A DNA stretch of 64,000 nucleotides, taken from contig NZ_KK211214.1 in NCBI RefSeq assembly GCF_000621125.1, positions 124,001-188,000 on the forward strand. The letters are read 5' to 3'. A program made the translations under genes and the position numbers. The DNA is from Maribacter antarcticus DSM 21422 (GTDB lineage Bacteria; Bacteroidota; Bacteroidia; Flavobacteriales; Flavobacteriaceae). Numbering within the stretch: position 1 is the stretch's first letter; every line of letters starts with the position of its first letter. The notes under the pieces are model-generated. The model searched no databases. It was not told where the DNA came from and saw only the letters and a list, made by a program, of their open reading frames with translations. Shown here in pieces: positions 9,439-30,954 of the stretch.

Positions 9439-11875
9439 ATGAACAAACTTTTTCTAAAAATTGCTGTGCGGTATTTATTAAAGAATAAATGCTACTCCTT
9501 CATTAATATTTTTGGATTGGCTATCGGCATAGCCACTTTTTTGTTCATTATATTCTATGTGAATTATGAACAGAGCTATGACAAATTTGAGGGTTCTGGG
9601 AATGTTTATAGCACCTATCTTGATAATTTGTAGGGCGACACTTTTATGCCAATGGCACAAACCTATAATTCATCCGGACCTACCTTAAAACAGAAATTCC
9701 CAGAAGTCTTGGATTATGTTCGTTTCTTTTATTTTAAAAAAATGACTTTTAAAGTTGGAGATATGATACTGGAACAATCCTTAGGTTCATTGGCTGATCC
9801 ATCTTACTTTAATATTTTTAATTATCCGCTTTTAAAGGGTGAAAAGAAGTCCACGCTAATTGAACCTTATACTATTCTCCTTTCTGAATCCTTTGCTAAA
9901 AAAATTTTTGGTGAGCAGAATCCAATGCAAAAAACAATTACAGCATATAGGGATGGGGTAGAAGCACTACTCCCTGTTACTGGGGTTATAAAAGATGTGC
10001 CTGAAAATGCACACTACAGAAATACATTCCTGATTTCTTATGAAATAGAGAAAACATGGATATACTATGGCCAAGAGATACACAAACTTAATTGGAATTT
10101 TGAGAACTATTGTACGTACATCAAATTAGCTAACAATACCAGCCCAGCCCTTTTACGTCAAAAAAATACTTGATAGTATATTAAAAAAAAATGTCCAACG
10201 GCATATCATAGAGGCAATTGAAGAGATATATTTAAACTCTGATAAAAGATATGAAGTTTTAGTAAATGGCAGTGTTGCCAGAGTGAAGTTGCTGCAGGCC
10301 ATAGCCTTTATCATTCTTATTCTTTCCTGGCTGGACTTTGTCAATTTATCTGCCACAAAATCAATGGAACGAGCCAAAGAAACCGGAATCATAAAAGTGG
10401 CAGGAGCTCAGAAATCACAACGTATCATCCAATCCCTTGTAGAATCAACTCTAATTAATTTAATTTCTATTTCTATTGCTCTAATTTTAGTTGTAATATT
10501 TTTGCCGCTATACAATAGCACTACAGGAAAAGAGCTGAGCTTTGAGCTTATAAATATCACCTCTATTTTGCCCTATTTTCTGTTAGTTCTCTTTGGAATA
10601 ATTGTGGCTGGTATTTATCCTGCCCTATTGCTAAGTAGTTATGCACCCGTAAAAGCATTGAAAGGTAAAATACAGACTTCTTCACAAGGTTTAAATATCA
10701 GGAAAGGTCTAATTATCACTCAATTTTCAGCAACAATCATTTTATTGATAGGAACCATAGTGGTGACCAAATAGATTAATTTTTTAGAGAACCAGCCTAT
10801 CGGTACCAATATTAATCCAGTTATTGCCTTAAAAGGAGACGTGTTAACGGGCGTGTCGGATTCGTTGATTTTCAATGACTTTAAAGTGTTGGAGGATGAG
10901 CTAAATAACGTAGCTTTTATAGACAAAATAGCCATCACACAAACCTATCCTGGTGATAGTTTTGATAATCTACCGTCATTCAAGGGTATCGTACTTCCGA
11001 ATGGTTTAGAGAACAAAACCTTTTATACGTACCATGCGCAACCAGATTATTTTGATTTAGTTGGCATCTCTTTTGTAGCAGGCAAAACTTTTATACCGTC
11101 AGCGAGTGGCAGTAGTAATCAAGTTGTGGTGAATGAAACTTTTCTAAAAGAGATGGGAATTACATCTGGTGAGGAAATAATTGGTAAAACATTGGCATTT
11201 TGGGGGAATGACGAATGGATAGTAACCGGAGTATTGAAAGACCATCACCATTTTGGACTAAAAAATAAGATTTAACCTATGTTGATACGGCATACAAAAC
11301 AAGTTATTAAGCTTAACCTTTTGGTTAAACTTACCGTATCCAAGGCATCGGTTACCGGATTAAATAATTCAATAGCTCAGATTCAAGGAAAATGGAATCA
11401 GATTTTTCCAGAAAGCACCTTCAATTATACTTTTTTAGACCAGAATTTTGAAGCACAGTACAAGAAAGATATGGCTTTTGGAGCTGCCTTTCAGATTTTT
11501 ACCGCTTTAGCTATACTGATTGCAGCCATGGGGCTTTTTGGGCTTACTTCTTACACAGTAGTGCAACGAAAAAAGGAAATAGGCATGCCTAAGGTAAACG
11601 GAGGGACAATACCACAAGTGCTTGCACTTTTAAATAAGGATTTTATAAAATGGGTGGGCGTTGCTTTTGTTATTGCAGTTCCTATTTCTTGGTATGCCAT
11701 GAACCAATGGTTAGAAGGTTTTGGTAACTATATAAGTAGTGAGTCTTCCCATAGATTCTAGCAGTTGCTTTACTGCACAGCTTCTGAAGAAATTATTTCA
11801 ATGAGTAAAGCTGCAACTTTATCCAATCAAAACGTAGAAGTATTTAGAAAAGAGTGTATTGCTATATGGGAATAA
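9439..11875 (+). pseudogene. Broken MacB/FtsX-family ABC transporter permease
   Basis: The pieces together make one permease of about 800 residues of the MacB/FtsX type common in Bacteroidetes. The start MNKLFLKIAVRYLLKNK with first helix (INIFGLAIGIATFLFIIF), the periplasmic domain, the middle helices (DFVNLSATKSMERAKE) and the last helices (AMGLFGLTSYTVVQRKKEIG) are all visible. The reading frame is broken by an in-frame TAG at 9631, a frameshift near 10155-10170 in an A-run, an in-frame TAG at 10772, an in-frame TAA at 11273 and a frameshift near 11750. With at least five lesions it is certainly non-functional as an export pump. No ATPase or membrane fusion gene lies beside it. It borders the Pfa locus. 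Confidence 0.92.
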
Positions 11876-12520
11876 TTACTCCTCCAATAAATCCTTTATT
11901 TCAACAAATTCCACATCAATAGCAGTTTTAGTCTCCATCGCGACTATTCCATTAAAATTAGAATCAAAATCAAAGGATTTAAAATAAAAACGTTTATTAT
12001 AATACATACCGTATTCTTCAAAAACTTTTAGTTGTTTCAAGTCTATCAAAGTACAGCCAGCTGCTTTTAACAACGCTTCTTTACGTACCCAAAACCAATA
12101 AAACCGCTCTAAAGAATCTGTAGCATCTAAAATAGAATTCCACTCAACTTCTGTAAATAAATAGTTGAATAATTTTAAATCAACAGTCTTTTTTCTCTCA
12201 ATATCAATACCTACAGAAAAATCGGTACTAAATATTATAGCAACGTACCCATTACTATGAGAAATAGAGAAATTATGATGAATAAAACTCGGTTTTCCTT
12301 GTTCAGAATAGCGTATTTCTTCTAACAAAGAGGCTGGAAGTCCGTTTTCAAACAATACTTTTCTTAACAAGAGGCGCCCAGTACTATAACTCAATGAACT
12401 CTCTTCGTCTAAATACCTCTGTGCCCTTTCTTGATAAGCCTTTGGAAGGTTTTTAAGTAACAGTTCCTTCGTGATAACAGCTCTGTTTTTAGGTATCTTA
12501 ACGATTTTTACTTTTTGCAT
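11876..12520 (-). CDS. 4'-phosphopantetheinyl transferase (Sfp/PfaE-like)
   Basis: A 214-residue Sfp-type phosphopantetheinyl transferase. The two signature motifs are present: VGIDIERKK (Mg-binding Asp and Glu) and WFWVRKEALLKAAG (the WxxKEA motif). The FSISHSNGY motif (SHS) precedes them. The enzyme transfers the 4'-phosphopantetheine arm of CoA to the serine of carrier proteins. It is divergent from, and 127 bases away from, the regulator of the Pfa locus, so it most likely primes the four ACP domains of the synthase, in the role of PfaE. Its stop codon directly abuts the end of the permease pseudogene. Confidence 0.92.
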   Translation of the reverse strand: MQKVKIVKIPKNRAVITKELLLKNLPKAYQERAQRYLDEESSLSYSTGRLLLRKVLFENGLPASLLEEIRYSEQGKPSFIHHNFSISHSNGYVAIIFSTDFSVGIDIERKKTVDLKLFNYLFTEVEWNSILDATDSLERFYWFWVRKEALLKAAGCTLIDLKQLKVFEEYGMYYNKRFYFKSFDFDSNFNGIVAMETKTAIDVEFVEIKDLLEE

Positions 12521-12647: not shown

Positions 12648-13265
12648 ATGATTACGAAAGAATATATCGTAGCGATAACCACTCAATTATACTTAAAAAA
12701 TGGTGTAAAAGCGGTCACTATTGCAGACATCACTAAAGAATTGAGTACTTCTAAACGGACGATATATAATCATTTTATAGATAAAACTGATTTAATGCAA
12801 ACCTGTATAGAACAATATTTGGCTGGTATTAGGAGTAATAACGATGAAATTATAAACACCTGTAATTCTGCTATTGAAGCGTTGGGAATGATTCATCAAC
12901 AGATTTTAAAAAGAGCGGATTATAGCAATGCCAACTTTTACAAGGAGATACTAAAGTATTTTCCTAGTGTCCTAAAAGATTCTTATGAAAAGAATTCAAA
13001 ATTCGCCTTTCGCGAATTACTTTATTTAGCAAAATGGGGCGTAAAAGAGGGTTTATTTAGAAAAGATTTAGATCCTGAAGTTACAATGGCTACGGTTCAA
13101 ACATTGCTGAAATTATGTAACAATTCAAAAGTATTTTCGTCAGGACAATTTTCTAAAGCCAGGCTTACTGAAGGCATTATGGTCGTTTACCTAAGAGGCT
13201 TGTGTACCGAAAAAGGCCTTTTAGAAGTTGAAAAACAGAAACATCTATACTTAACAATAGACTAA
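12648..13265 (+). CDS. TetR/AcrR family regulator of the Pfa locus
   Basis: A 205-residue TetR-type protein. The N-terminal helix-turn-helix region reads ATQLYLKNG-type helix 1, then VTIADITKELSTSKRTIYNHF, the standard DNA-contact helix. The C-terminal ligand/dimer domain has no recognisable ligand signature. It ends five bases before the first synthase gene, so it is almost certainly cotranscribed with it and is the obvious candidate for its repressor, binding the repeats upstream. The effector is unknown; an acyl-CoA or fatty acid would suit the locus but is inference. Confidence 0.9.
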   Translation: MITKEYIVAITTQLYLKNGVKAVTIADITKELSTSKRTIYNHFIDKTDLMQTCIEQYLAGIRSNNDEIINTCNSAIEALGMIHQQILKRADYSNANFYKEILKYFPSVLKDSYEKNSKFAFRELLYLAKWGVKEGLFRKDLDPEVTMATVQTLLKLCNNSKVFSSGQFSKARLTEGIMVVYLRGLCTEKGLLEVEKQKHLYLTID

Positions 13266-13270
13266 AAATT

Positions 13271-16200
13271 ATGGACACTATTAACAGTTCACTTAAAAAA
13301 ACACCAGTAGCAATTATTGGTCTGTCGGCAATGTTTGCTGATGCCAGCAATGTAGAAGAATATTGGAATAATATTATCAATCAGAAAGATAGTATTGTCG
13401 ATGTTCCAGAATCGCGTTGGAAAATAGAGGATTACTACGATGCAGACCCTACAACAGCAGATAAAACCTATTGTAAAAGAGGAGGGTTTATTCCTGATGT
13501 TAACTTTAATCCAATGGAATTTGGTTTACCCCCCAATATTTTAGAAGTTACGGATGTGTCTCAATTATTGTCCTTAATAGGGGCTAGAGATGCATTTGAA
13601 GATGCTGGTTATGGCAGGGAATCGGCCAAGTTTACAGCGTTGTTAAAAGAAAAAACCGGCGTGATTTTAGGTGTTGGTGGTGGTCAAAAATTAATTACGC
13701 CGCTGACCTCAAGATTACAAGCTCCTATTTGGGAAAAAGCCCTAAAAAGTAGTGGCATCAGCGATGCTGATATTCCACATATTATAGAAAAAATGAAGAA
13801 AGCATATGTTGGATGGAATGAAAATTCCTTTCCTGGTATGTTAGGGAATGTTATCTCTGGTCGAATTACAAATCGTTTTGACTTAGGGGGCATTAATTCT
13901 GTTGTGGATGCAGCTTGTGCGGCCTCACTTTCTGCTATAAAAATGGCGGTCTCGGAATTGATTGAAGGACGATGTGATATGATGCTTACTGGAGGTGTCG
14001 ATACAGATAACTCTCCTTTTATGTATATGTCCTTCTCAAAAACTCCGGCGTTTTCTCAAAAAGGAAGTATTCGTCCTTTTGATACCGACTCTGACGGCAT
14101 GTTGATTGGAGAAGGAATTGGAATGTTAGTCTTAAAAAGATTAGAAGATGCAGAACGTGATGGGGATCGAATTTACGGTTTACTTACTGGAGTAGGTTCT
14201 TCTAGTGATGGCCGCTATAAATCGGTTTATGCGCCACGTCCTCACGGTCAGGCTTTGGCGATGCAACGTGCTTATGACGAGGCAGGCTACGATGCTTCTA
14301 CGGTAAAATTAATTGAAGGTCACGGCACTGCAACAGGAGCCGGAGATGCTGCTGAGTTTGAGTCAATGTCTATGGTTTTTGGCAAAAGTGACACGACAAA
14401 AAATCATATTGCCATTGGTTCTGTAAAATCGCAAATAGGGCATACAAAATCGGCTGCAGGTGCTGCTGGAATGATAAAAGCGGCTTTAGCTTTATATCAT
14501 AAAGTGTTGCCAGGTACCATAAACGTTACCAAGCCTCATGAAAAATTCGGGATTGAAAATTCTCCTTTTTATGTCAATGCAGAAACCAGACCTTGGTTTA
14601 AAAACGGTGTACCTCGTAGAGCTGGGATATCCGCTTTTGGATTTGGTGGTGTGAACGTCCATTTTGCTATGGAAGAATATGAAAACAAAACGTCCTTTAC
14701 AGATAGAATACATCAAACATTTCACAGTATTTACTTAAAAGCGTCTGACGCTAGTGGTTTATTAACGCATCTGAAAAACACAATTGTTGGGTTGAATTCG
14801 AATGAAGCAACTACGGCGTTTTATAAGTTAAAAGAGAGTTCTAAGCAAGGCACTGCAAAACAAAACGAAGCGCGTTTAGGTTTTGTTGCAGAATCTTTAG
14901 AGGATTGTATTTCTAAACTAGAAATTGCAGTCAAACAATTAGAAAATAATAAGGACGCTTGGTCGCACCCAAAGGAAATATTCTTTAGACCAAACGGAGT
15001 TTCAAGCAGCATAAAAGTGGCTTCATTATTCTCTGGTCAGGGTTCTCAATATGCTAATATGGCAAAAGAGGCGACGAGTAGTTTTGAAACACTACAACAA
15101 ACAATTGCTGCTTTTGATGCTAAAAAAGGATACGATTTAGCAACTAAAATATATCCAAAACCTGTGTTTACAGCGGAGGATAAAGAGAGCTTAGAAAAAA
15201 ATATTACAAATACAGAGTTTGCGCAACCTGCAATAGGTGCCATAAGTTTAGGGTACTACAAAATCTTTAAAAATGCAGGTCTTGTAAGTGATATGATGGC
15301 CGGGCATAGTTTTGGTGAGCTTACGGCACTTTGTGCATCGGGCGCACTCAGCGAAAGTGATTATATGACACTAGCGATTGCTCGTGGTAAGGCTATGGCA
15401 GGTAAAAATGCAAGTGGAGATGCTGGTATGATGTTAGCTGTTAAAGCTGCTACTTCTGAAATTCAGCCATTAATTGCTGGTAATCCGGGGGTTTCTATTG
15501 CAAATATTAATGCCTCAAACCAACTCGTTTTAGGCGGAACAACAGAAGGTATAACGAAAGCAAAAACGCTGTTAGATACTAGAAACTACCGTTCTGTTAT
15601 ATTACCTGTTTCTGCAGCTTTTCATACGGACTGTGTTGGTCATGCACAACAGCCTTTTGAAAAAAGCATACAGGCTATAGAATTCTCAAGCCCAGTGATT
15701 CCTGTGTATTCAAATTCGACAGGAAATGCCTACCCAACGGAGACTCCTGAAATTAAAAATATCTTAGCGCAACATATTTTAAATACGGTCGATTTTAAAA
15801 CTGAAATTGAAAATATGTACGCTGCTGGTGCGCGCGTTTTTGTTGAATTTGGGCCTAAGTCTATTTTGACTAATCTCGTAAAAGACATCTTAGCTGATAA
15901 AGAACATTTCGTGGTGGCAACAAATGCAAAAGCAACTAAAAACAGTGATTTACAAATTAGAGAGGCTGCCGTACAATTACAAGTTTTAGGATGTGAATTA
16001 GGTGCCATTGACAGTAATGCACGTCGGGTAGCAATACCTTTAGTACAACCAAAAATGGCGGTGAAAATAGCGGGTAATAATTATGTGAGTCCTGCAACGC
16101 AAAAAGTGTATAATGACGTTTTAAACAACGGATTTAAAGTGAGCGGCGCTACAGAAATTATTAGAACCGTAGAAGTGATTAAGGAAGTGATAAAAGAGGT

Positions 16201-17863
16201 TCCTGTCGCTATAAATAAAATCAGTACAGACCAAGTTACAGAAGAAGATATGACGGCAACGATTATTAAAAGCGCTATTGATGGCATTAAGGAAAATCAA
16301 TCTAAAACATTAGATATGTTCCAAACCATTTTGACGGAACAGAACAAACAAACGGCGCAATTATTAGCCCTTTTATCAGATAATTTTGGAGGGGAACAAA
16401 ACCCTGAAAATACTGCTGCAGTTGCTATTAAAACACCCGCTGCCGCTAGTCCTTCAGCTCCTCCAGCTACAGCTACAGCTCAAATAGTTGAACCTATTAA
16501 GCCTGCTGCGATACCCGTAATTGAATCCACCTTACCACCCCAAGGGAATTCAGAAATGTTAGACCTTATGTTAAGCGTCGTTGCGGACAAAACAGGCTAT
16601 CCTGCTGAAATGTTAGAATTGAGTATGGATATGGAAGCGGATTTAGGAATCGATTCTATCAAACGTGTGGAGATTTTTGGCGCGATCACTGAGCAATCAG
16701 ATAAATTATCAGACATCAACCCTAACGACTTAACAGAACTAAGGACGCTACAAGAAATTGTGGATTATATTTCTGCTAAAGCAGGAATTAGCGCTACCAC
16801 AAGCACTGCTGCTCCTAGTGTTGTTCCAGTAGCTCAAACAGATGAAACCACCAAGCCTATTGCAACACCAGTCGTTGAACACGTTGTATCTACTGAAGGA
16901 AATTCAGAAATGCTCGACCTTATGTTAACCGTCGTTGCCGATAAAACAGGCTACCCCGCTGAAATGTTAGAACTAAGTATGGATATGGAGGCCGATTTAG
17001 GAATCGACTCTATCAAACGTGTGGAGATTTTTGGTGCGATTACTGAGCAATCAGATAAATTAACAGACATCAACCCTAACGATTTAACAGAGCTTAGAAC
17101 ATTGCAAGAAATTGTGGATTATATTTCTACAAAAGCTGGAATTAGTACTACTACTAGAACTGCTGCACCTAGTGTTGCTCCAGTAAATCAAATAGTTGAA
17201 GCAATGAATTCTGTGGCCACGCCAGTCGTTGAACACGTGGTGCCTACGGAAGGAAATTCGGAAATGTTAAACCTTATGCTAAGCGTTGTTGCTGACAAAA
17301 CAGGCTACCCTGCTGAAATGTTAGAATTAAGTATGGATATGGAAGCCGATTTAGGAATCGATTCTATCAAACGTGTGGAGATTTTTGGTGCGATTACTGA
17401 GCAATCAGATAAATTAACCGATATCAACCCTAACGACCTAACAGAATTAAGAACGTTACAAGAAATTGTGGATTATATTTCTACAAAGGCCGGAATTAGC
17501 CCTACTTCTGCACCTGTTGCTGAACCTCTTGTAAATACAGATTCTATTGCAATACCGATCGTAGAAACAGCCGTGCCGACTGAAGGAAACTCCGAAATGC
17601 TAGACCTTATGCTAAGCGTCGTTGCTGACAAAACAGGCTACCCTGCTGAAATGTTAGAGCTAAGTATGGATATGGAAGCAGATTTAGGAATCGACTCTAT
17701 CAAACGTGTGGAGATTTTTGGCGCGATTACTGAGCAATCAGATAAATTAACAGACATCAACCCGAATGACCTCACAGAACTTAGAACATTACAAGAGATT
17801 GTGGATTACATTTCTGCCAAAGCAGGAGGGGTTATTAAAAAAAAAAATCTCAGCCTAGCTTAA
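13271..17863 (+). CDS. pfaA: PUFA-synthase-like PfaA, part 1: KS-AT-ACPx4
   Basis: A 1530-residue multidomain synthase. Domains in order are a ketosynthase (about 10-470) with C216 in DAACAASLSA and the two histidines in EGHGTATG and GHTKSAAG; a malonyl/acyl transferase (about 595-890) with S680 in GHSFGELTAL and His in SAAFHTDCV; an Ala/Pro-rich linker; and four tandem ACPs with the phosphopantetheine serine in LGIDSIKRVEI at residues 1129, 1247, 1365 and 1476. KS-AT-tandem ACP is the hallmark of PfaA in PUFA and related lipid synthases. Normally the same chain continues into a ketoreductase. Here the frame runs through eleven A residues at 17837-17847 and stops 14 bases later, while the KR part continues in the -1 frame. 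It is therefore either a truncated half, a slippage-dependent gene or a sequencing artefact. Confidence 0.93.
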   Translation: MDTINSSLKKTPVAIIGLSAMFADASNVEEYWNNIINQKDSIVDVPESRWKIEDYYDADPTTADKTYCKRGGFIPDVNFNPMEFGLPPNILEVTDVSQLLSLIGARDAFEDAGYGRESAKFTALLKEKTGVILGVGGGQKLITPLTSRLQAPIWEKALKSSGISDADIPHIIEKMKKAYVGWNENSFPGMLGNVISGRITNRFDLGGINSVVDAACAASLSAIKMAVSELIEGRCDMMLTGGVDTDNSPFMYMSFSKTPAFSQKGSIRPFDTDSDGMLIGEGIGMLVLKRLEDAERDGDRIYGLLTGVGSSSDGRYKSVYAPRPHGQALAMQRAYDEAGYDASTVKLIEGHGTATGAGDAAEFESMSMVFGKSDTTKNHIAIGSVKSQIGHTKSAAGAAGMIKAALALYHKVLPGTINVTKPHEKFGIENSPFYVNAETRPWFKNGVPRRAGISAFGFGGVNVHFAMEEYENKTSFTDRIHQTFHSIYLKASDASGLLTHLKNTIVGLNSNEATTAFYKLKESSKQGTAKQNEARLGFVAESLEDCISKLEIAVKQLENNKDAWSHPKEIFFRPNGVSSSIKVASLFSGQGSQYANMAKEATSSFETLQQTIAAFDAKKGYDLATKIYPKPVFTAEDKESLEKNITNTEFAQPAIGAISLGYYKIFKNAGLVSDMMAGHSFGELTALCASGALSESDYMTLAIARGKAMAGKNASGDAGMMLAVKAATSEIQPLIAGNPGVSIANINASNQLVLGGTTEGITKAKTLLDTRNYRSVILPVSAAFHTDCVGHAQQPFEKSIQAIEFSSPVIPVYSNSTGNAYPTETPEIKNILAQHILNTVDFKTEIENMYAAGARVFVEFGPKSILTNLVKDILADKEHFVVATNAKATKNSDLQIREAAVQLQVLGCELGAIDSNARRVAIPLVQPKMAVKIAGNNYVSPATQKVYNDVLNNGFKVSGATEIIRTVEVIKEVIKEVPVAINKISTDQVTEEDMTATIIKSAIDGIKENQSKTLDMFQTILTEQNKQTAQLLALLSDNFGGEQNPENTAAVAIKTPAAASPSAPPATATAQIVEPIKPAAIPVIESTLPPQGNSEMLDLMLSVVADKTGYPAEMLELSMDMEADLGIDSIKRVEIFGAITEQSDKLSDINPNDLTELRTLQEIVDYISAKAGISATTSTAAPSVVPVAQTDETTKPIATPVVEHVVSTEGNSEMLDLMLTVVADKTGYPAEMLELSMDMEADLGIDSIKRVEIFGAITEQSDKLTDINPNDLTELRTLQEIVDYISTKAGISTTTRTAAPSVAPVNQIVEAMNSVATPVVEHVVPTEGNSEMLNLMLSVVADKTGYPAEMLELSMDMEADLGIDSIKRVEIFGAITEQSDKLTDINPNDLTELRTLQEIVDYISTKAGISPTSAPVAEPLVNTDSIAIPIVETAVPTEGNSEMLDLMLSVVADKTGYPAEMLELSMDMEADLGIDSIKRVEIFGAITEQSDKLTDINPNDLTELRTLQEIVDYISAKAGGVIKKKNLSLA
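16545..17826 (+). repeat. Four tandem, nearly identical ACP-coding repeats
   Basis: Each unit codes for about 80 residues that are nearly the same in all four copies, from NSEMLDLML to EIVDYIS, separated by variable Ala/Thr/Pro linkers. Spacing between the active serines is 118, 118 and 111 codons. The DNA is also closely similar, so copy number could change by recombination. Tandem ACPs are typical of PfaA. Confidence 0.9.
17837..17847 (+). other. Run of 11 A at the PfaA frame break
   Basis: The run is read as AAA AAA AAA AA(T) by the ACP frame. In the -1 frame it leads without a stop into SQPSLSVEQ and then the KR-DH protein. That -1 frame is closed by a TAA just before the run (17836-17838), so the switch can occur only here. 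Adding one A, losing two A, or slipping back one base would join the two halves. Confidence 0.9.
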
Positions 17864-17919
17864 GTGTAGAGCAAAACAATACGGTAATCAAGGAGACTAC
17901 CTCAAAACAGGAATTCTCC

Positions 17920-20358
17920 TTGCCTACCAAATTCTACAATGTGCCTCGGAAATCTATCGGCTTAAAATTTATTCCTAAAGTAGATCTTCTAGTACAGGAC
18001 ATTTCGGCATTAAAACCTGTTGTAATTACAGACGAAGGAAGCGATTTGACTTTGGCTGTAAAAGCAAAATTAGAAAGCGAAGGCCATACCGTTATTGTCA
18101 TTCAATTTGACGCTTTTAAAAAGAATCCTACTCTAAAAAATGGGATTTCTATTTCAGAAATAAACGACCAAAATATAAAAACGGCTATCGATACAATCTT
18201 AGCTAAAAATGACATTGGTTCTTTTATTTATTTACACCCACATTTCACTTTTTCAGGATCTAATTTCACGCAACATTTTGATACGGAGCGTGCATTGCTA
18301 AAAGCCACTTTCTTGCTGGCAAAACAGCTACAAGCACCATTAAATGCCAACAGCAAAACACAACGAACTGCTTTTATGACCGTGTCTCGTTTAGACGGAA
18401 AATTTGGAATGGACAAACGTTCTAATATGTCTATCATTGCTGGTGGATTATCTGGATTAACGAAATGTATGAATCTAGAATGGTCTCCTGTATTTTGCAG
18501 AGCAATCGATGCAAAACCTGAATTAGCGGCAAAGGAAATTGCAGCTGCTTTATTCTTAGAATTACACGATGCAGATGTACGCTATGTCGATGTCGCCATC
18601 ACTGAAAATGGACGGATGACTTATGAGGTTACAACGAATGAAGTAAGTGCTGCAGAAGACTACCAACAAACGGTTACAGATAAAGACGTTTTTTTAGTTG
18701 CTGGAGGTGGTAGAGGGGTTACCGCGACCTGTATCAAAGAAATGAACATTGCTTTTAAATCTAAATTTATCCTTTTAGGGAGATCCGCTTTAGATTTTGA
18801 ATTACCAGCTTTTGCATTAAATGGAGTGAGCCCTGCAGCTCTTAAAAATGAGATTATGCAGGAGATGAAATCTAGTGGAGAAAAAGTTTCAATTAAAGGT
18901 CTAAACAGTAGGTTTAATAAATACGTTGCTAAAAAGGAAATTGAAGAAACTATTGCGCACATCAAAGCAAATGGAGGCGATGCTATTTATGTGGCGGGTG
19001 ATGTTACGAAGTTAACCATCAAACCCGAATTACTTGAGATTGAAAAAAAATGGGGTAAAATTACTGGTATCATTCACGGTGCTGGTCGGTTAGCGGATAA
19101 GCTCATTCAAGATAAAACTGAACAGATTTTTGATGATGTGACTTCCGTGAAATTAGATGGTTTAACTAGCCTTTTAAAAATGGTAAACGTGAACGAATTA
19201 AGGCATTTAATTATGTTTTCTTCCGTGGCGGGTTTCTACGGAAATGTTGGCCAATCAGATTATGCGATGGCCAACGAAATTTTAAGTGCCGCGGCACATT
19301 TGTTTAGTACCAACCATCCTAACACTAAAGTTACCTCAATTAATTGGGGCGCTTGGGAAGGCGGTATGGTGAGTCCTGAGTTGCAAAAAATGTTTGAAGA
19401 AGCAGGTGTTTCTTTGGTCAACCATCCTGGTGGCGCTGCTCGTTTTGTTCAAGAATTAAACGGAGCGTATCACCACCAACCCCAAGTTATAATTGGAGGC
19501 ACATTACCTGCAGGTATTTCGGATATTTCTGGCCCTTTAAAAACCTATACTATTCAACGACATTTAAGTTTAAAAGACAATGCGTTTTTAAAGGATCACG
19601 TTATTCAAGGTAGTTCTGTTTTACCAATGGTAAACGCCACAGCGTGGATGGCAGATTCTTGTGTAAAACTATTTCCAGATTATAAATTGGCGCGGATAGC
19701 ACATGTAAAACTGTTTAAAGGGATTGTTTTTGATGGCACTGAAAAAGAAGTTTATTTTACAGAAATTAAAGAACAAAGTAAAACAGCAGACCATATTGTT
19801 TGTGATGTCACTGTGTATAGTAAAGGGGTGAAGCTATCGTTAAATCATTACCGTTCAACCATTACGCTTTCGCGAAAAAGAAGCGATAAACCTAAATTTC
19901 AAACCCCTATACTAAAAGAGAACAAAATAGATGGCGCTACTTTTTATAAAGACGGTTCTTTATTTCAAGGTCCTTTTTACCAAGGTATAGAAGCGGTTTT
20001 GTCGATAGATAAAGATCAAGTTTTACTAAAATGTAAAGCACCAGTAGTTTCTTTTGAAACACAAGGGCAGTTTCCTAGCACGAGTTTAAACGCATTTTTC
20101 TTAGATATACAATATCAAGGTATGATTCTATGGGTGCAAAAGTATCATAACGGTGCTAATAGTTTGCCTTTACAAACAATAGAAGGACTGGTTTATGGGG
20201 AGATTCCTGCAAATAAAAGTTTCTATGTACATATGAAAATACAAGAAAATTCAGCCACAAAAATGATCGCAGACATTACCGTATACGACGAAAATAGAGC
20301 TGTTTTTTTATTCACAGAAGGCGCTGGATTAACCGTTTCAGAAGGGTTAACCTGGTAG
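17920..20358 (+). CDS. pfaA: PUFA-synthase-like PfaA, part 2: KR-DH
   Basis: A protein of about 812 residues if a TTG at 17920 is used, but the open frame reaches back to the A-run at 17839 and the sequence in between looks like an ordinary interdomain linker. This supports it being the C-terminal half of PfaA and not a separate gene. It holds a ketoreductase with the NADPH loop VAGGGRGVTA (about 259-268), SSVAGFYG and the catalytic Tyr at 448 (SDYAMANE). A polyketide-type hot-dog dehydratase follows, with H560 in KDHVIQGSSVLP. The KR would reduce the beta-keto group and the DH would take part in dehydration. No ATG or good ribosome site stands near the start. Confidence 0.88.
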   Translation: MPTKFYNVPRKSIGLKFIPKVDLLVQDISALKPVVITDEGSDLTLAVKAKLESEGHTVIVIQFDAFKKNPTLKNGISISEINDQNIKTAIDTILAKNDIGSFIYLHPHFTFSGSNFTQHFDTERALLKATFLLAKQLQAPLNANSKTQRTAFMTVSRLDGKFGMDKRSNMSIIAGGLSGLTKCMNLEWSPVFCRAIDAKPELAAKEIAAALFLELHDADVRYVDVAITENGRMTYEVTTNEVSAAEDYQQTVTDKDVFLVAGGGRGVTATCIKEMNIAFKSKFILLGRSALDFELPAFALNGVSPAALKNEIMQEMKSSGEKVSIKGLNSRFNKYVAKKEIEETIAHIKANGGDAIYVAGDVTKLTIKPELLEIEKKWGKITGIIHGAGRLADKLIQDKTEQIFDDVTSVKLDGLTSLLKMVNVNELRHLIMFSSVAGFYGNVGQSDYAMANEILSAAAHLFSTNHPNTKVTSINWGAWEGGMVSPELQKMFEEAGVSLVNHPGGAARFVQELNGAYHHQPQVIIGGTLPAGISDISGPLKTYTIQRHLSLKDNAFLKDHVIQGSSVLPMVNATAWMADSCVKLFPDYKLARIAHVKLFKGIVFDGTEKEVYFTEIKEQSKTADHIVCDVTVYSKGVKLSLNHYRSTITLSRKRSDKPKFQTPILKENKIDGATFYKDGSLFQGPFYQGIEAVLSIDKDQVLLKCKAPVVSFETQGQFPSTSLNAFFLDIQYQGMILWVQKYHNGANSLPLQTIEGLVYGEIPANKSFYVHMKIQENSATKMIADITVYDENRAVFLFTEGAGLTVSEGLTW

Positions 20359-20388: not shown

Positions 20389-23300
20389 ATGAAAGAAAAA
20401 ATAGCAATCATCGGCATGTCGTCTCTTTTTCCTGGGTCTAAAACGGTACAAGAGTTTTGGAATAACCTTATGGATAAAAAGGACTTGACTGGTATGGCAA
20501 CAAAAGAAGATTTTGGTGCCGACCCCGAACTCTTCTATAAAAAAGATAAAGGAACTATAGATCGCTGTTATTCCTTACGTGGAGGCTATATCCGTGATTA
20601 TAATTTTAACAGCGCAGACTTTGGCTCTGAAGACTTAAATGATTTAGACCAAATGTATCAGTGGGGCTTGCAAGTAACAAAAGATGCTTTAATGCACGGC
20701 GGTTACTGGAATAAAACTGAAGCTTTAGACCACTGTGGCGTCATCTTTGGAAATTTATCTTTTCCAACAAAATCGTCCCATAAAATTATGGCGCCTATTT
20801 ATACAAAAACGCTTGAAAAAGGAATTAAGACTCTTTTAAAAGATGACAGTTTTGAAATTCCAGCAACAACATATGAAATTCCAAAAAACAATCCTCTTGA
20901 AGGTGATGTCTCGGAATTGGTTAAAAATGTAATTGGTTTAAAAGGCACAAATTTTGACTTAGACGCCGCTTGTGCTTCTTCGCTCTATGCTATAAAAATG
21001 GCTTGTGACGAATTGTTAATCGGCAAGGCCGATATGATGTTAGCAGGAGCCGTTTGCTCGTCAGACCAATTGTTTATCCACATGGGATTTTCAATTTTAC
21101 ATGCCTATGCAGGTCATGATCATAAATACTCGCCATTAGATAAGGACTCTGCTGGATTAGTATCGTCGGAAGGCGCCGGTATGATTCTTATGAAACGCTT
21201 ATCAGATGCGGAAAAAGATGGCGATAATATCATCGGTGTTATTTCAGGAATTGGTTTATCTAATGACGGCGGTGGTAAATACTTATTAAGTCCTAATCCA
21301 AAAGGCCAAACATTAGCTTATGAAAGAGCGTATAATGGAACTGTTTCTAAAGAAAACACCTCTTATATAGAATGCCACGCAACAGGCACGCCTCTTGGCG
21401 ACGTTACTGAAATCAATTCTCTCGAAACTTTCTTTGGGGACAATCCAGACAAATTACGTTTAGGTTCTGTAAAATCAAATATTGGGCATATGCTCACGGC
21501 AGCAGGAATGCCTAGTTTAATGAAAGTGTTACTTTCTATGGAGCATCATAAGATTCCACCCGGAATTAATTTGTCCACCGCAATTCAATCTAAAAAAGGC
21601 TGGTTTACGCAAGAGCAAATCATAGAAGAGCCCTTAAAATGGGAAACAAACGATAAGCAAGCAGCAGTAAATTCTTTTGGCTTTGGAGGTACCAATGCCC
21701 ATTTAGTTGTGGAAAGCCATTATAAAGAAAAAAGTAAGAAACACACAGGCGTCAAACTCAAGGAAATGGCCATCACAAGTATGGAAGTTCATTTTGGTGA
21801 TTGCGTTAACCTAGATGCTTTTTACCAATCTATTTTTGAAGGAACTCAGCATTTTTCTGAGATGCCAATTGATAGATGGAAGGGTTTTGAAAAAAATAAT
21901 GACTTATTATCCAGTTTTGGTTTAGATACAAAAAAGCCACCTAGAGGCAACTTTATAGCTGATTTTGACATGGATTTAATGCGCTATAAAATCCAGCCGA
22001 ACGAAGTTGGCACTATGGAACCACAGCAAGCTTTAATCTTAAAGGTTGCCGATCAAGCCATCCAAAAATCAAGCTTAAAAAAAGGGGAAAACGTAGCGGT
22101 TTTAATTGCGATGAATCCCGAACTTGCGATACATCATTACTTAGCGCGTTGGGACAGCCAGTGGCAATTAGATAAAGCATTAGATCGTGCCGGAATTGAT
22201 TTAGAAGCCACACAAAAAGCAACACTTTTAGGCGAATGTCGTAATATATTGTACACGATAGGGAACGCACAGACTCCGAGTCAGCATACGAGTTTTGTTG
22301 GTAATATTATGTCGAGTCGTATTTCGGCTTTATGGGATTTTAACGGCCCCTCATTTACAATTACCAATGGAAATAACGGAACAACAAGAGCCTTAGAAGT
22401 CGCTCAGAATATGTTGTCTTTAGGCGAAGTTGATGCTGTTGTTGTGGGAGCAGTTGAGTTCTCGGGAGGTATGGAAGCCGTTCTTTTACGGAATCTGATT
22501 GCCACCGTAAACCAAAATAAACAACCAAGTTTGTCCTTTAATGCAGACGATTATGGTTGGTTGATTGGCGAAGGGGCATCGGTTATTGTTTTAAAGGCTG
22601 ATGACAAGATAACAGAAAAAGACACTGTTTATGCTACTATTGATGCTATCGGAGATTTGTCAACAGGTAAAAATATCGCCTTACAAGAATTAGTAGCTTC
22701 TGGATTTAAGCAAGAAGATGACTTAGAAAAAGCCCAATTATTAGCGCAAAAAGCGGATCATAAAATTGCATTAGGGTCTGTAAAAACGAATATCGGACAT
22801 ACGTTTTCGGCAGCGGGATTAGCTTCTGTTGTAAAAACAGCCCTTTGTTTGTACCATCAATTTATTCCGGGCATTCCAAATTGGAAATCTGTAAAAAATG
22901 AGGCTCTAAAAAATAGCAATTACTATTTTCCAAGCCAATCAAGACCTTGGATTAATGAGACGGATTACCCGAGAGAGGCACTCGTAAATTTGAGTCCATA
23001 TTCTCGTGTAAAACTATCAGAAGTTACACATCCTAAGCACCCTAAAATTGATAATTTCTTAAAAAAGCATCTGTTTATTTTAAAAGGAAATACGCAAAAT
23101 GAGCTTAGAGAAGACCTAAGCCTAATTAGCAAAGATATTCTTGTTGATGACTTGGGATTTATAGCACAGGGCTATTATGACAAAACAGCCAAAACCAAAG
23201 CAATATATAGCATTGTTTTAGTTGCTTCTAGTCAGAAATCGCTACTACAAGATATCGGGTTTATAGAAAAAAAATTAGCGGTAGCCTTTGATAAAAAGAC

Positions 23301-26300
23301 AGATATCAAACTCCCTAGTGGTTCTTTCTTTAGTCCAAACCCAAGCGCAGCTAAAGGTGATTTAGCATTTGTATATCCAGGCTCCGCAACGAGTTATGAG
23401 GGATTAGGACACGATTTATTTCAGTTTTTTCCAAACCTTTTAAGCGATTTTGAAAACAAAATTCCAAACCTTAAAGAGTTCTTTGGCTTAGACTATTTAT
23501 TTCCTAAGAAGCAAGACCGTGCAACAGCGTCTCCAAACATTCAGACTGATGCTATTTCTATGATGTCTGCCGGGGTGCTATATTCGACCTTGTACACGCA
23601 CATATTAAGAGCATATTTTGGCGTAAAGCCAAAGGCAGCTATGGGTTATTCTATGGGGGAGTGCAGCTCTATGTGGTATTCATTTGGCATTTGGAATCCC
23701 GGTGAGGGGACGAAAATATTCCGCAACTCTCCAATTTTTAAAAATAAATTTTCTGGCGATTTGGAATTATTAGCCGAAGAATGGAATATTAGTACAAAAG
23801 AAGCAAAAGCCAGATGGCAAAGCTGGATTTTATTAGACACAAGGGAGAGGGTAGAAGCCCATATCTCGAAATTTGATAAGGTCTTCATCACTTTTGTAAA
23901 CTCTGAAAAGGAGTTGATAATTTCTGGTGATAAAAGTCAGTGTGAAGGGTTGATTAAGGCCTTGAATTGTCCATCAGTACTAGTGCCTTTCCAAAATGTT
24001 ATCCATAACGAGTTCTGTAAAAAGGAATGCGATGGATTGATCGAAATGCATAATTTCCCATTAGAAAACCATCCAGAAGTTGACTTTTATTCTAGTTTAA
24101 CAGGTGAAAAAATTCCTATGGAGTCGTTAAGAATAGCCGAGAATTCCACAAAAGTGTGCTATAAAACAGTTGACTTTCCCGCTTTTGCAAAAAAAATGTC
24201 AACAAATGGATTTAGTACGTTTGTAGAACTCGGTCCTAATAGCACCTGTACCAATTGGCTTAAAGATACGCTGAACTTACAGCAACATGTTGCTTGTGCT
24301 ATTGATAAAAAAGGCACGAGTTCTATTCAGTCCCTATACGAATGTTTGGCGCAATTAATTTCTAACGGAATTGATATTGATTTAGGTTTATTATATCCGA
24401 ATACCAATCAGAAACAACTCAAAAAGCACTTTACTAAAAAGGTAAAAACAGGGGGGAGTCCTGTGTATGATGTGTTACTATCTGAGGATATTCAACGCCA
24501 GTTTGCTACCGTAAAAAGAAAAGAGAAATTACAAAACACAACAAAAAACAAAGGGGCTAGTCAGCCTATTACAACAAAACATACCTTAGAAAAAATAGCT
24601 AGTATGATAGATACTTCAATACGAAAAAAGGATCCTAAAACGACTGTTAAAATTGCAGAAAATGGTTTAAAATTACAGGATTATAATGACCCAAATCACT
24701 TAAAAGATAAGAACGTCATTTACACGAAAGAAGATTTAATTGAATTTTCAGAAGGAAAAATCGGCAATGTGTTTGGCGCAGAATACAATGTTATTGACCA
24801 ATACAAACGCAGGGTGATGTTGCCAATGGATCCTTATTTATTGGTGAGTAGAGTTACTGGTTTAGATGCGAAACTCGGCGAATACAAACCCTCTACCATG
24901 CAAACCGAATACGACATTCCGTATAACTCAGGGTATGCAACCGATACACAAATTCCTTGGGCAGTGTCTGTAGAATCTGGACAATGCGATTTAATGTTGA
25001 TTTCTTATTTGGGAATCGATTTAGAAAACAAAGGAGATTATGTGTATCGTTTATTGGATTGCACCTTAGAATTTATCGACGATTTACCTTTTGAAGGGCA
25101 AACTTTGCGCTATGATATTTCTATTAATTCATTCGTTAGAAACGGACGTAATTTATTGTTTTTCTTTAGCTACGAGTGTTTTGTAGAAGACCGTATGGTT
25201 TTAAAAATGACCAATGGCGTTGCTGGTTTCTTTACTGATGAAGAATTGAGTAAAGGAAATGGGGTGGTTTATACAGACAGTGAAAAGAAAGTTTTGGCAG
25301 AGGTAGAAAAGAAAAAATTTATTCCTTTTTTAACCACAAAAAAGACTGCTTTTGATATTGAGGATTTAAGACATCTGATCAATGGAGATGCCCATAAATG
25401 TTTTGAAGATATTTCTTATTTCCCTAATGGAAAAAATAAATCGATACGATTAGCTCCAGAAAAAATGCTGATGTTAGATCGTATTGTTAAGGCAGATGTC
25501 AATGGGGGTGCTTATGGTTTGGGAGAAGTTATAGCAGAAAAAGACTTGAGTCCAGACGATTGGTATTTTCCTTGTCATTTTAGAGATGACCAAGTATTGG
25601 CAGGTTCTTTACAAGCAGAAGGTGGCGGAAATCTACTGCGTTTCTTTATGATGATGCTCGGTTTGCAGCGCCTTAAAAAAGATGCGCGTTTCCAACCCAT
25701 TTATGGACTCCAACAAAAGGTAAGATGTAGAAAAGAAGTCACTCCTAACGATAAAATATTAACCTATCGCCTTGTCATTAAAGAAATCGGCTTATTGCCT
25801 GACCCTTATGTGATCGGTGATTTAGAAATTATTGTAGATGGTGTTATTACCGTTCATTTTGCTAATTTAGGATTGCAATTAAGAGAAAAAGACAATCCAA
25901 AATACTTGGAGCAACCTAAGAAGGTGACTGAAAATGTTTTGTTAAATGAAACTGACATCGAAATATTTGCTTTGGGAAGATTAGCCGACTGTTTTGGGCC
26001 AGAGTATGCCGTTTATGACAATAGAGCCTTATCGCGTCAACCAAACACAGATTTACAAGTCGTAAGCCGCGTGATTAAAATTGACGGAGAGCGTTTTGAT
26101 TTCTCAAAACCAACAAATATCTGGACAGAGTACGACGTGCCTCAAGATGTTTGGTATTACAAACAAAATGCGTCCATGACAATGCCTTATACGATATTGA
26201 TGGAAATTGCACTACAACCTTGTGGACTATTGGGTGCTTATTTAGGAAGTACCTTATTATTTCCTGACAAAGATTTATACCTTAGAAATCTAGATGGTGA

Positions 26301-27087
26301 CGGTGAATTATTAGAACTTCCTGTAGGCACAGATTTTAGAGGGAAAGTGATTAAAAATAAATCAACCTTAACGTCTTCTACGTCATTAGGTGGTTTTGTA
26401 ATTCAGAAATATCTGTTCGAAGTCTCGGTCGATGGGCACGTTTTTTATAAAGGATTTTCTTCATTTGGATTTTTCCCTAAGGAAGCCTTAGCGCAACAAG
26501 TAGGTTTAGATAAAGGAGAGGATATCCCAGCTTGGTATGTGCAAAACAACTTGACGACCAAAGATTATTTCCAAATAAAACTAGATTCTTTATACGCAAA
26601 AATGAAATTGTATAAAGAAAATGATAAAGCAAACAACTTCCGCTTGGCAGAAGACCAGCTTAATTTACTAGACAGGGGTGTCGTTGTGAAAAACGGAGGT
26701 GAATTTGGTAAAGGCTATATCCATTGTTCCAAAGCAATTCATACCTATGACTGGTTCTTTACCTGCCATTTTTATTCTGATCCCGTAATGCCAGGGTCTT
26801 TAGGTGTCGAAGCTATTTCGCAGGCCATGCAGTTATTTGCATTACAACAAGATTTAGGGAAAGACTTTAATAAACCACGATTTGTACAAGTTGAAAACAA
26901 TAAAACCGAATGGAAATACCGTGGACAAATAAGAGTAAATGTAGAAAACATGCATCTAGAAGTCCATTTTAAAACCATAGAAAAACGAGGCGCCATTTTG
27001 GTTTTGATAGCTAATGCCTACCTCTGGAACGAAGGCACAAGAATTTACCAAGTCACAGATTTGGCATTGGGTATTCAAGAAGCATAA
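20389..27087 (+). CDS. pfaC: PUFA-synthase-like PfaC with fused PfaB-type AT: KS-CLF-AT-DH-DH
   Basis: A giant 2232-residue synthase subunit. Domains in order are a ketosynthase (about 1-455) with C195 in DAACASSLYA and IECHATGTPLGD; a chain-length-factor KS (about 465-930) whose active-site segment TITNGNNGTTRA lacks the Cys; a PfaB-like acyltransferase (about 985-1330) with S1088 in GYSMGECSS; and two FabA-like double hot-dog dehydratases (about 1480-1870 and 1885-2232). The catalytic histidines are H1730 (PCHFRDDQVLAGS) and H2127 (TCHFYSDPVMPGS). In Shewanella and Moritella the AT is a separate PfaB protein. The fused order here is that of myxobacterial Pfa3, without the terminal acyltransferase of some of those. 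It starts 30 bases after PfaA. Confidence 0.95.
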   Translation: MKEKIAIIGMSSLFPGSKTVQEFWNNLMDKKDLTGMATKEDFGADPELFYKKDKGTIDRCYSLRGGYIRDYNFNSADFGSEDLNDLDQMYQWGLQVTKDALMHGGYWNKTEALDHCGVIFGNLSFPTKSSHKIMAPIYTKTLEKGIKTLLKDDSFEIPATTYEIPKNNPLEGDVSELVKNVIGLKGTNFDLDAACASSLYAIKMACDELLIGKADMMLAGAVCSSDQLFIHMGFSILHAYAGHDHKYSPLDKDSAGLVSSEGAGMILMKRLSDAEKDGDNIIGVISGIGLSNDGGGKYLLSPNPKGQTLAYERAYNGTVSKENTSYIECHATGTPLGDVTEINSLETFFGDNPDKLRLGSVKSNIGHMLTAAGMPSLMKVLLSMEHHKIPPGINLSTAIQSKKGWFTQEQIIEEPLKWETNDKQAAVNSFGFGGTNAHLVVESHYKEKSKKHTGVKLKEMAITSMEVHFGDCVNLDAFYQSIFEGTQHFSEMPIDRWKGFEKNNDLLSSFGLDTKKPPRGNFIADFDMDLMRYKIQPNEVGTMEPQQALILKVADQAIQKSSLKKGENVAVLIAMNPELAIHHYLARWDSQWQLDKALDRAGIDLEATQKATLLGECRNILYTIGNAQTPSQHTSFVGNIMSSRISALWDFNGPSFTITNGNNGTTRALEVAQNMLSLGEVDAVVVGAVEFSGGMEAVLLRNLIATVNQNKQPSLSFNADDYGWLIGEGASVIVLKADDKITEKDTVYATIDAIGDLSTGKNIALQELVASGFKQEDDLEKAQLLAQKADHKIALGSVKTNIGHTFSAAGLASVVKTALCLYHQFIPGIPNWKSVKNEALKNSNYYFPSQSRPWINETDYPREALVNLSPYSRVKLSEVTHPKHPKIDNFLKKHLFILKGNTQNELREDLSLISKDILVDDLGFIAQGYYDKTAKTKAIYSIVLVASSQKSLLQDIGFIEKKLAVAFDKKTDIKLPSGSFFSPNPSAAKGDLAFVYPGSATSYEGLGHDLFQFFPNLLSDFENKIPNLKEFFGLDYLFPKKQDRATASPNIQTDAISMMSAGVLYSTLYTHILRAYFGVKPKAAMGYSMGECSSMWYSFGIWNPGEGTKIFRNSPIFKNKFSGDLELLAEEWNISTKEAKARWQSWILLDTRERVEAHISKFDKVFITFVNSEKELIISGDKSQCEGLIKALNCPSVLVPFQNVIHNEFCKKECDGLIEMHNFPLENHPEVDFYSSLTGEKIPMESLRIAENSTKVCYKTVDFPAFAKKMSTNGFSTFVELGPNSTCTNWLKDTLNLQQHVACAIDKKGTSSIQSLYECLAQLISNGIDIDLGLLYPNTNQKQLKKHFTKKVKTGGSPVYDVLLSEDIQRQFATVKRKEKLQNTTKNKGASQPITTKHTLEKIASMIDTSIRKKDPKTTVKIAENGLKLQDYNDPNHLKDKNVIYTKEDLIEFSEGKIGNVFGAEYNVIDQYKRRVMLPMDPYLLVSRVTGLDAKLGEYKPSTMQTEYDIPYNSGYATDTQIPWAVSVESGQCDLMLISYLGIDLENKGDYVYRLLDCTLEFIDDLPFEGQTLRYDISINSFVRNGRNLLFFFSYECFVEDRMVLKMTNGVAGFFTDEELSKGNGVVYTDSEKKVLAEVEKKKFIPFLTTKKTAFDIEDLRHLINGDAHKCFEDISYFPNGKNKSIRLAPEKMLMLDRIVKADVNGGAYGLGEVIAEKDLSPDDWYFPCHFRDDQVLAGSLQAEGGGNLLRFFMMMLGLQRLKKDARFQPIYGLQQKVRCRKEVTPNDKILTYRLVIKEIGLLPDPYVIGDLEIIVDGVITVHFANLGLQLREKDNPKYLEQPKKVTENVLLNETDIEIFALGRLADCFGPEYAVYDNRALSRQPNTDLQVVSRVIKIDGERFDFSKPTNIWTEYDVPQDVWYYKQNASMTMPYTILMEIALQPCGLLGAYLGSTLLFPDKDLYLRNLDGDGELLELPVGTDFRGKVIKNKSTLTSSTSLGGFVIQKYLFEVSVDGHVFYKGFSSFGFFPKEALAQQVGLDKGEDIPAWYVQNNLTTKDYFQIKLDSLYAKMKLYKENDKANNFRLAEDQLNLLDRGVVVKNGGEFGKGYIHCSKAIHTYDWFFTCHFYSDPVMPGSLGVEAISQAMQLFALQQDLGKDFNKPRFVQVENNKTEWKYRGQIRVNVENMHLEVHFKTIEKRGAILVLIANAYLWNEGTRIYQVTDLALGIQEA

Positions 27088-27172: not shown

Positions 27173-28771
27173 ATGATTGACTTAAAATGGATAGGATCTC
27201 CCAGAGAGATTTCATTTGATATCACAGGAATGTTTGATAAACTAAAAAACACCGCCGTACCTTGTTATGTGGTGAAAGATTTGTCAGGTCGCATTGGAAT
27301 TACCAATACGGGAACCATTCAATCAGAAGGAAAGGGCTTATTTTTAAAAGCTATAGTGCCTGCGTTCACAGCAGAAGATTTAGGGGATGCCTCGTTTAAA
27401 GAAGACTACAAATTAAAATATGCCTATAAAGCAGGTGCCATGGCAAACGGAATTGCCTCTACAGACCTGGTCATTGCTTTAGGGAAAAACCAAATGATGG
27501 GATCTTTTGGCGCTGCGGGGATGATTCCATCGCGCGTTAAAGAAGCCATTGCCACGATTCAAAAAGCATTGCCGACTCAAGCTTATGCTTGCAATCTTAT
27601 CCATAGTCCCATTGAAAAAGCCTTAGAAGAAGGTGCCGTTAACTTGTTTATAGAACACGGTGTAAAAGTGGTAGAAGCTTCCGCTTATATGAACCTGTCA
27701 GAGCAAATTGTAAAATATAGGGCTGTAGGATTGAGTTTAGATGCGCAAGGCGAAATTATCATTGCCAATAAAGTGATTGGTAAAATTTCTAGAAAAGAAG
27801 TGGCTGAACGTTTTATGTCACCTGCACCTATACAATTTTTAGACAAATTATTGGCTGCTGGAAAAATTACCCAGCAACAGTACGAATTGGCTCAAAAAGT
27901 TCCCATGGCAGATGATATTACTGTGGAAGCAGATTCTGGCGGACATACAGACAACCGTCCTATGGTCGTTGTATTGCCTATCATTTTACAATTGAGAGAC
28001 GAAATTCAGAAAAAATACCAGTACAAAAAACAAATTAGAGTGGGTGCCGCTGGAGGAATAGGGACTCCTGCTTCTGCCTTAGCAGCTTTTGCTATGGGAG
28101 CTGCCTATGTGGTAACGGGTTCTGTCAACCAAGCCTGTGTAGAATCTGGGACTTCAGAAGCTGTGAAGGACTTACTTGCCAAAGTAACCTCTACAGATAT
28201 CACCATGGCTCCTGCTTCAGATATGTTTGAATTAGGCGTAGAACTGCAAGTCTTAAAACGAGGGACTTTATTTGGTGCCAGAGCAAAGAAATTATACGAA
28301 ATCTATAACCGCTATCAGGGCATTGATGCCATTCCTAAAGACGAAAGACTAAAGTTAGAAACAAAAACGTTTAGAATGCCTTTAGAAGAGGTATGGGATG
28401 GTTGTGTCAGTTTCTTTGAAGAACGAGATCCAGAGCAAATAAAAAATGCCCAAGGAAATCCAAAACGTAAGATGGCTTTGATTTTTCGTTGGTATTTAGG
28501 GCTTTCCTCTAATTGGGCCAATGCAGGTGATATAGACAGAGTGATGGATTATCAAATTTGGTGTGGCCCTGCGATGGGCGCTTTTAACGAATGGACTAAA
28601 AATTCCTATTTAAGCGAAACAAAAAACAGAAAAGTTGCCGATGTAGCTACCCACTTATTAGAAGCTGCTGCGTATTTACATAGGATCAATACCATCAAAA
28701 ATCAAGGTGTGGATTTGCCGCTTGAGGTGATGCACTTAGGTATTGAAGATAAACATTTTGCCATGGTTTAG
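27173..28771 (+). CDS. pfaD: PfaD-like trans-acting enoyl reductase
   Basis: A 532-residue FMN-dependent TIM-barrel protein of the 2-nitropropane dioxygenase/PfaD family that supplies enoyl reduction in trans to PUFA synthases and trans-AT polyketide synthases. Visible features are ALGKNQMMGSFGAAG, the glycine-rich flavin loop AAGGIGTPASALAAFA and the family C-terminal part with WCGPAMGAFNEW. It closes the synthase operon, 85 bases after PfaC. Having its own gene, like PfaD, separates this system from the thraustochytrid layout, in which ER domains are fused. Confidence 0.95.
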   Translation: MIDLKWIGSPREISFDITGMFDKLKNTAVPCYVVKDLSGRIGITNTGTIQSEGKGLFLKAIVPAFTAEDLGDASFKEDYKLKYAYKAGAMANGIASTDLVIALGKNQMMGSFGAAGMIPSRVKEAIATIQKALPTQAYACNLIHSPIEKALEEGAVNLFIEHGVKVVEASAYMNLSEQIVKYRAVGLSLDAQGEIIIANKVIGKISRKEVAERFMSPAPIQFLDKLLAAGKITQQQYELAQKVPMADDITVEADSGGHTDNRPMVVVLPIILQLRDEIQKKYQYKKQIRVGAAGGIGTPASALAAFAMGAAYVVTGSVNQACVESGTSEAVKDLLAKVTSTDITMAPASDMFELGVELQVLKRGTLFGARAKKLYEIYNRYQGIDAIPKDERLKLETKTFRMPLEEVWDGCVSFFEERDPEQIKNAQGNPKRKMALIFRWYLGLSSNWANAGDIDRVMDYQIWCGPAMGAFNEWTKNSYLSETKNRKVADVATHLLEAAAYLHRINTIKNQGVDLPLEVMHLGIEDKHFAMV

Positions 28772-30915: not shown

Positions 30916-30954
30916 ATAATGCAAAGTCTAACCTATAAAAATGGTTTTTAAAGT

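Follow-up and report, generated by a model that had tools for sequence, protein, structure and literature searches.

The window, by which we mean the whole 64,000-nucleotide stretch of DNA analysed here, carries a pfa cluster in which pfaA, which takes part in the synthesis of polyunsaturated fatty acids in marine bacteria, is broken at a run of eleven A. The cluster and the features around the break are:

11876-12520, minus strand: phosphopantetheinyl transferase, likely pfaE (PF01648)
12648-13265, plus strand: TetR-family regulator directly upstream of pfaA (domain search)
13271-17863, plus strand: pfaA frame 0 (pfaA1), the predicted short product, with KS, AT, four ACP and the tail KKKNLSLA
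17836-17838, plus strand: TAA closing the -1 frame ahead of the run and overlapping its first two A
17837-17847, plus strand: A11 run, the putative slip site, exactly 11 A, adjoining the fourth ACP on its 3' side
17839-20358, plus strand: -1 frame with the linker and KR-DH (pfaA2), KR and DH by Pfam and NCBIfam
17889-17922, plus strand: possible stimulatory hairpin, an 8-bp stem with arms at 17889-17896 and 17915-17922
20389-27087, plus strand: pfaBC fusion with KS, KS/CLF-type, AT and FabA-like DH domains (domain search)
27173-28771, plus strand: pfaD, enoyl reductase (TIGR02814, 664.8 bits)

The frame that opens at ATG 13271 scores 1751.9 bits against TIGR02813, contains four PP-binding stretches and ends ...AGGVIKKKNLSLA, its TAA stop (17861-17863) beginning 14 bases past the A11 run. 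Because the TAA at 17836-17838 closes the -1 frame, any shift is confined to the stretch between that codon and 17863; an in-register heptamer, A_AAA_AAA, lies at 17839-17845 within the run. The KR-DH frame is predicted to be entered by a -1 shift from the 13271 frame, and the coordinates and frames that an earlier note on this DNA had given, with pfaA breaking at 17837-17847 and KR-DH continuing in -1, proved correct. This is the sole in-register A_AAA_AAR or G_GGA_AAG heptamer in the 1530 codons of the window's pfaA frame, and the same layout recurs in tens of relatives, so that the arrangement exceeds chance. Ahead of the KR motif the -1 frame holds no ATG, no GTG and one TTG, at 17920. Five loci with runs of eleven or more A were checked in the window's own genome, with one run each: one is the pfaA site itself, two lie under an open frame (117 or 147 codons) and two under none, a sample too small to carry much weight.

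A split pfaA of this form has been described before. The cluster in the window fits the definition of Type D, in which pfaA is divided into pfaA1 [KS-AT-ACP5] and pfaA2 [KR] (Shulse and Allen, 2011, PMC3098273) and pfaB and pfaC are fused; a separate KR region has likewise been described in Aureispira marina (Yoshida et al., 2016, PMC4882568). The product expected of a Type D cluster would be arachidonic acid or EPA. As far as the accessible portions of the published descriptions go, the Type D clusters of Psychroflexus torquis, Ulvibacter SCB49 and Aureispira marina share with the window the domain order, the split after the ACP region and the pfaBC fusion; they differ in being presented as two genes, with five ACP in pfaA1, whereas the window and A. 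marina have four. The earlier note's premise that KR sits on one chain with the rest of every known PfaA is thus wrong. The portions of these two papers available to us mention no frameshift site, and we found no report of pfaA recoding in the largely open-access literature searched. Within that literature the split is already known as two genes.

Relatives were gathered from several draws of genomes. The order draw (395 genomes) gave five matches, namely the window's own genome, one full relative (G357) and three weaker partial matches (G354, G370 and G409) of 31-33% identity with frames of 2345-2383 codons. The family draw (397 genomes) also gave five, the own genome included; the others were G357, G682 and G635, all three split as in the window and in the identical register, and G487 (L036), which covers only the KR-DH end. 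A genome collection contributed 25 loci, including those of Psychroserpens jangbogonensis (L041), a MAG of Dokdonia (L042), an isolate of Ulvibacter (L044, the G357 locus) and Patiriisocius marinus (L048, the G682 locus); the junction DNA of the G635 locus (L035) is identical to that of L043. Among Saprospiraceae, the family of L045, 49 of 298 genomes matched, with open frames of at most 890 codons, some of them cut by contig ends, except for G1248 (31% identity, 2160-codon frame), and an order draw around Flammeovirga gave matches in 13 of 380. The phylum draw of 395 genomes held no match at E <= 1e-50 besides the own genome, a search of the genus of G357 added nothing new, viral contigs yielded no confirmed relative, and two Persicobacter records were used from the 14 plasmid records that matched.

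In all, 83 locus ids were taken, with L030, L034 and L070 omitted because they duplicate the genomes of L044, L048 and L045. Removal of nine repeats of identical junction DNA and four loci without the ACP end left 70 DNA-distinct loci, of which the frames show 56 to be split and 14 fused. Of these, five did not enter the tally: L060 (a cyanobacterium), L064 and L065 (from records with Brevefilum and Phototrophicales in the title) as non-Bacteroidota, and L061 (Spirosoma, with extra frame breaks) and L096 (KR in +1) as exceptions. The tally of 65 loci thus comprises 54 split and 11 fused, which collapse at 90% identity into 51 clusters, 46 of them split and 5 fused.

The break falls at the same place, with KR in -1, in 54 of the 56 split loci, from Flavobacteriaceae, Saprospiraceae and Cytophagales; the two that lie outside the pattern are a +1 case and a gene from outside Bacteroidota. 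Every tallied locus, 54/54 split and 11/11 fused, carries a slip heptamer of the X_XXY_YYZ form, in register, within the linker between ACP and KR. By type, the split loci divide into 42 with nine or more A, 8 with A_AAA_AAG only and 4 with G_GGA_AAG (L039, L055, L090 and L092), a heptamer that the fused locus L040 also has. Runs of nine or more A, the window's A11 among them, are therefore present in 52 of the 65 loci and absent from 13, and in those 13 (12 split and one fused, with only A_AAA_AAG or G_GGA_AAG) the longest A run is 3-7. No in-register A_AAA_AAR or G_GGA_AAG was found in the linkers of L060, L064 and L065, and neither occurs in L063, a second cyanobacterium dropped from the set.

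Closer to the window, each of the six distinct family loci carries an A10 or A11 run in the same register, a TAA ahead that closes the -1 frame and a frame-0 stop shortly 3' of the run. The window's A11 differs from the A10 of the other family loci by an adjacent base change (A for G) and not by an indel, so the register is unchanged between them. Across KR-DH the window is separated from five family relatives by dS of 1.07-1.58 (dN 0.075-0.112, dN/dS ~0.07), from which it follows that the run has outlived near-saturation; in the linker dN/dS is ~0.19-0.34. Site and frame relation are, by this comparison, evidently conserved by selection, with two exceptions. In L061, A_AAA_AAG is followed by TAG and by further frame breaks. 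In L096, from the Saprospiraceae draw, an A9 run precedes KR in +1 within a palindrome-rich linker, and this may reflect an insertion, an error or polymerase slippage in the opposite direction.

The predicted short products have a feature of their own in the tails that follow the slip site (17846-17860 in the window). Ala is the last residue in 32 of the 54 split loci, whereas it makes up 10.5% of the ACP-region frames, a difference that a binomial p-value overstates because the loci are related. Such a tail could act as a degron, as a docking tail or as a termination context.

The evidence that we find most telling comes from the eleven fused pfaA genes of Flammeovirga, Persicobacter and their kin, in which KR-DH needs no shift and the slip site is nevertheless present, ten times as A10 and once as G_GGA_AAG, although eight of the eleven represent one Flammeovirga-type lineage. 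In those eight, frame 0 crosses the A10 into KR-DH and a -1 slip would give KKVY and then a stop; elsewhere the -1 tails are KKVYI (L056), 13 residues (L057) and GKA (Persicobacter JZB09, L040). All 11 would thus meet a stop 1-12 codons after a -1 slip. Early stops are in themselves no rarity in unused frames, and we place the weight on the slip site rather than on the stop. Lineages differ in whether the long product lies in frame 0 or in -1, and the capacity for both forms would appear to have been kept. Persicobacter psychrovividus (L039) and L055 carry G_GGA_AAG as L040 does, yet are split; between L039 and L040 a small length difference just 3' of the common heptamer separates split from fused pfaA. 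One organism of each architecture, Psychroserpens jangbogonensis with the split L041 and Flammeovirga pacifica with the fused L051, is named in the available part of the source as producing mainly arachidonic acid (PMC13311796).

Outside the linker such sites are scarce. Over 88,680 codons of the frame parts covered, synonymous shuffles predict 77.5 in-register heptamers and 18 are observed, and 8.4 runs of nine or more A are predicted and none is observed. For A6[AG] the observed/expected ratio is 0.24 in register and 0.77 and 0.36 in the two others, so that the motif is scarce out of register too, strongly so in one case; GGGAAAG is absent in register, against 5.3 expected, and occurs 11 times out of register, against 9.3. 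The linker itself is open. The KR motif could be located in 45 of the 54 split loci. From slip site to motif their KR frame is free of stops over 1435 codons, as compared with 122 and 120 stops in the other two frames, and there is no ATG ahead of the motif in 39 of the 45 and no ATG, GTG or TTG in 22.

A quickly built tree of 68 rows, in which several branches are long and L061 was hand-labelled as split, requires a minimum of five changes in slip type and three in architecture, one of these being the +1 locus, with the register kept. It contains a clade of 49 Flavobacteriaceae and Saprospiraceae-type rows, the window included, without an in-frame (fused) copy. In the same tree the KR-DH part of Flavobacteriaceae pfaA is nested inside a Saprospiraceae-type clade, and of the 36 genomes from its genus the window's own is the single one to match above the PfaA family cut-off; the nested position together with this single match suggests that pfaA was acquired by transfer.

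Programmed -1 sites often, if not always, come with a stimulatory RNA element. Downstream of the run, the candidate hairpin begins 42 nt past the last A, a spacing that exceeds the usual stimulator distance, and TTG 17920-17922 sits in its 3' arm. Five family relatives retain its stem, none with more than one mismatch, and 96.7% of pair cells are kept across the six family sequences; covariation in these six is weak, its score being reached by 47 of 500 shuffles. Over the whole set, RNA z-scores peak 30-90 nt past the site, with a mean of -2.11 as compared with -0.46 for controls, and values below -3 occur in windows starting 0 to +90 in 30 of 65 loci, as compared with 11 of 130 control stretches, and are not reached in the other 35.

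The break, its -1 register, their conservation, the off-site scarcity, the open linker, the fused sites of reversed polarity and the enriched hairpin are all properties of the DNA, and from them we infer slippage in the cell, its efficiency, its agent and the usefulness of both products. We hold it very likely that pfaA is one gene expressed by -1 recoding, whether by ribosome or polymerase. Given such recoding, ribosomal slippage is probably the common agent, because A_AAA_AAG and G_GGA_AAG alleles exist, and polymerase slippage would come in addition, because runs of nine or more A are preferred. The most likely mechanism would be programmed -1 ribosomal frameshifting, aided on long runs by slippage of RNA polymerase. 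Ribosomes translating the KS-AT-ACP frame would meet the slippery A run directly past the last ACP; some would stay in frame 0 and terminate a few codons further on, releasing the short KS-AT-ACP protein, and others would slip one base back on A_AAA_AAA into the -1 frame and continue through the linker and KR-DH to full-length PfaA. Stuttering of RNA polymerase on nine or more A, with one extra A in the mRNA, would lead to the same long product and probably contributes at the A11 run. The proposal of the earlier note that a one-base slip would give both a short KS-AT-ACP form and full-length PfaA fits the comparison of 54 split and 11 fused loci. It is tempting to go further and to picture a dual-product PUFA synthase across Bacteroidota, in which the slip site is kept for a set ratio of short KS-AT-ACP to full PfaA and the tail of the short form, often Lys-Lys-x-x-Ala, is selected and may act in turnover or assembly; we give this picture an even chance.

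Two observations in the loci themselves sit less easily with recoding, the +1 locus L096 and the in-frame TTG 17920, which makes some independent initiation possible in the window. The latter belongs to the published reading of Type D as pfaA1 and pfaA2, as far as the available text states it, in which KR-DH would be a subunit started on its own, at TTG 17920 or by reinitiation past the pfaA stop. Four of the six family loci have a TTG in that position and P. psychrovividus has a GTG just 3' of the stop, which agrees with it, but the 22 of 45 split loci lacking any ATG, GTG or TTG ahead of the KR motif speak against it; two genes would also leave the slip site unexplained, along with a KR frame open from that site onward in 45/45 loci and a -1 relation in all 54 tallied. 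A Bacteroidetes promoter motif was found upstream of KR-DH in none of the six family loci. Two separate genes therefore seem improbable to us. Slippage by RNA polymerase alone, which would add one A or drop two and leave the ribosome to read normally, is a stronger rival, if still doubtful: nine or more A stand in 42/54 split and 10/11 fused loci though a ribosome needs only seven bases, such runs are missing elsewhere in the frame parts covered, and nine A are so used by Thermus dnaX (PMC3711429, as its accessible part describes). Against it, the 12 split loci and one fused locus with runs of only 3-7 A offer a rather short stretch for such slippage, the split ones showing the same -1 shift, and the scarcity of heptamers is strongest in the ribosomal register.

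The two remaining explanations were both raised in the earlier note. On/off switching of full-length PfaA by replication slippage in the run draws on the mutability of 9-11 A and on L096, the one +1 copy, but the clade of 49 rows holding the window has no in-frame copy and the frame stays constant while flanking bases change, the A11 and A10 alleles being a case in point; we regard it as very improbable. Less likely still in our estimation, to the point of being negligible, is a homopolymer error of sequencing or assembly in one intact gene. An A11 run is difficult and the genome is a 32-contig draft, but the same register recurs in 54 split loci from isolates and MAGs alike, at dS of ~1.1-1.6 to five family relatives, and the same -1 split is found in loci without a long homopolymer. 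As a general explanation, such error is ruled out by the comparison across loci.

Taken as a ribosomal site, the pfaA junction resembles that of dnaX, the gene for tau and gamma of DNA polymerase III, in which one gene likewise gives a short and a long product with a common N-terminus at A_AAA_AAG or 9-10 A. According to the part of the survey available, dnaX occurs both in a one-frame form, where the -1 shift gives the short product, and in a two-frame -1 form (Antonov et al., 2013, PMC3711429). The likeness has limits: pfaA encodes a different enzyme, uses the G_GGA_AAG slip type too, often has an Ala-ended short tail, and its products are predicted. We conclude that, by its sequence, the pfaA site is a real and conserved -1 recoding site of the dnaX-like kind, its use in the cell being predicted on the same grounds. 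The G_GGA_AAG heptamer is that of the phage lambda gpG/gpGT frameshift, which belongs to a tail assembly gene and not to an enzyme, so that the likeness to pfaA is limited to the heptamer.

If this reading is right, the published split gene becomes a recoded gene, the annotation of Bacteroidota pfaA would be corrected, and a fatty-acid megasynthase would have its subunit ratio set by frameshifting. Recoding by -1 would also be placed in a group in which, according to such sources as were accessible, ribosomes generally skip Shine-Dalgarno sequences. Recoding may bear as well on the poor function of Aureispira pfa genes in E. coli, where the available portion of the report describes weak activity and a 48-fold rise in arachidonic acid when AmpfaA was exchanged for Shewanella PfaA (Hayashi et al., 2016, PMC5067506), a protein described in the accessible text as having KR on the same chain (PMC4882568); other causes are possible. 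By the same partial account, the A. marina genes, with KR described on a separate gene, yielded some product in E. coli, a point against recoding, which that outcome would not require.

Beside the pfa cluster, at 9646-11761, lie four ORF pieces in which MacB_PCD and FtsX domains alternate, resembling one or two broken MacB-type permease genes. On the other side, about 3 kb (28835-31870) are without an internal ORF of 120 aa; within them, 29790-30023 resembles a transposase C-terminus, and 30266-30439 on the minus strand encodes a VEVEVE repeat.
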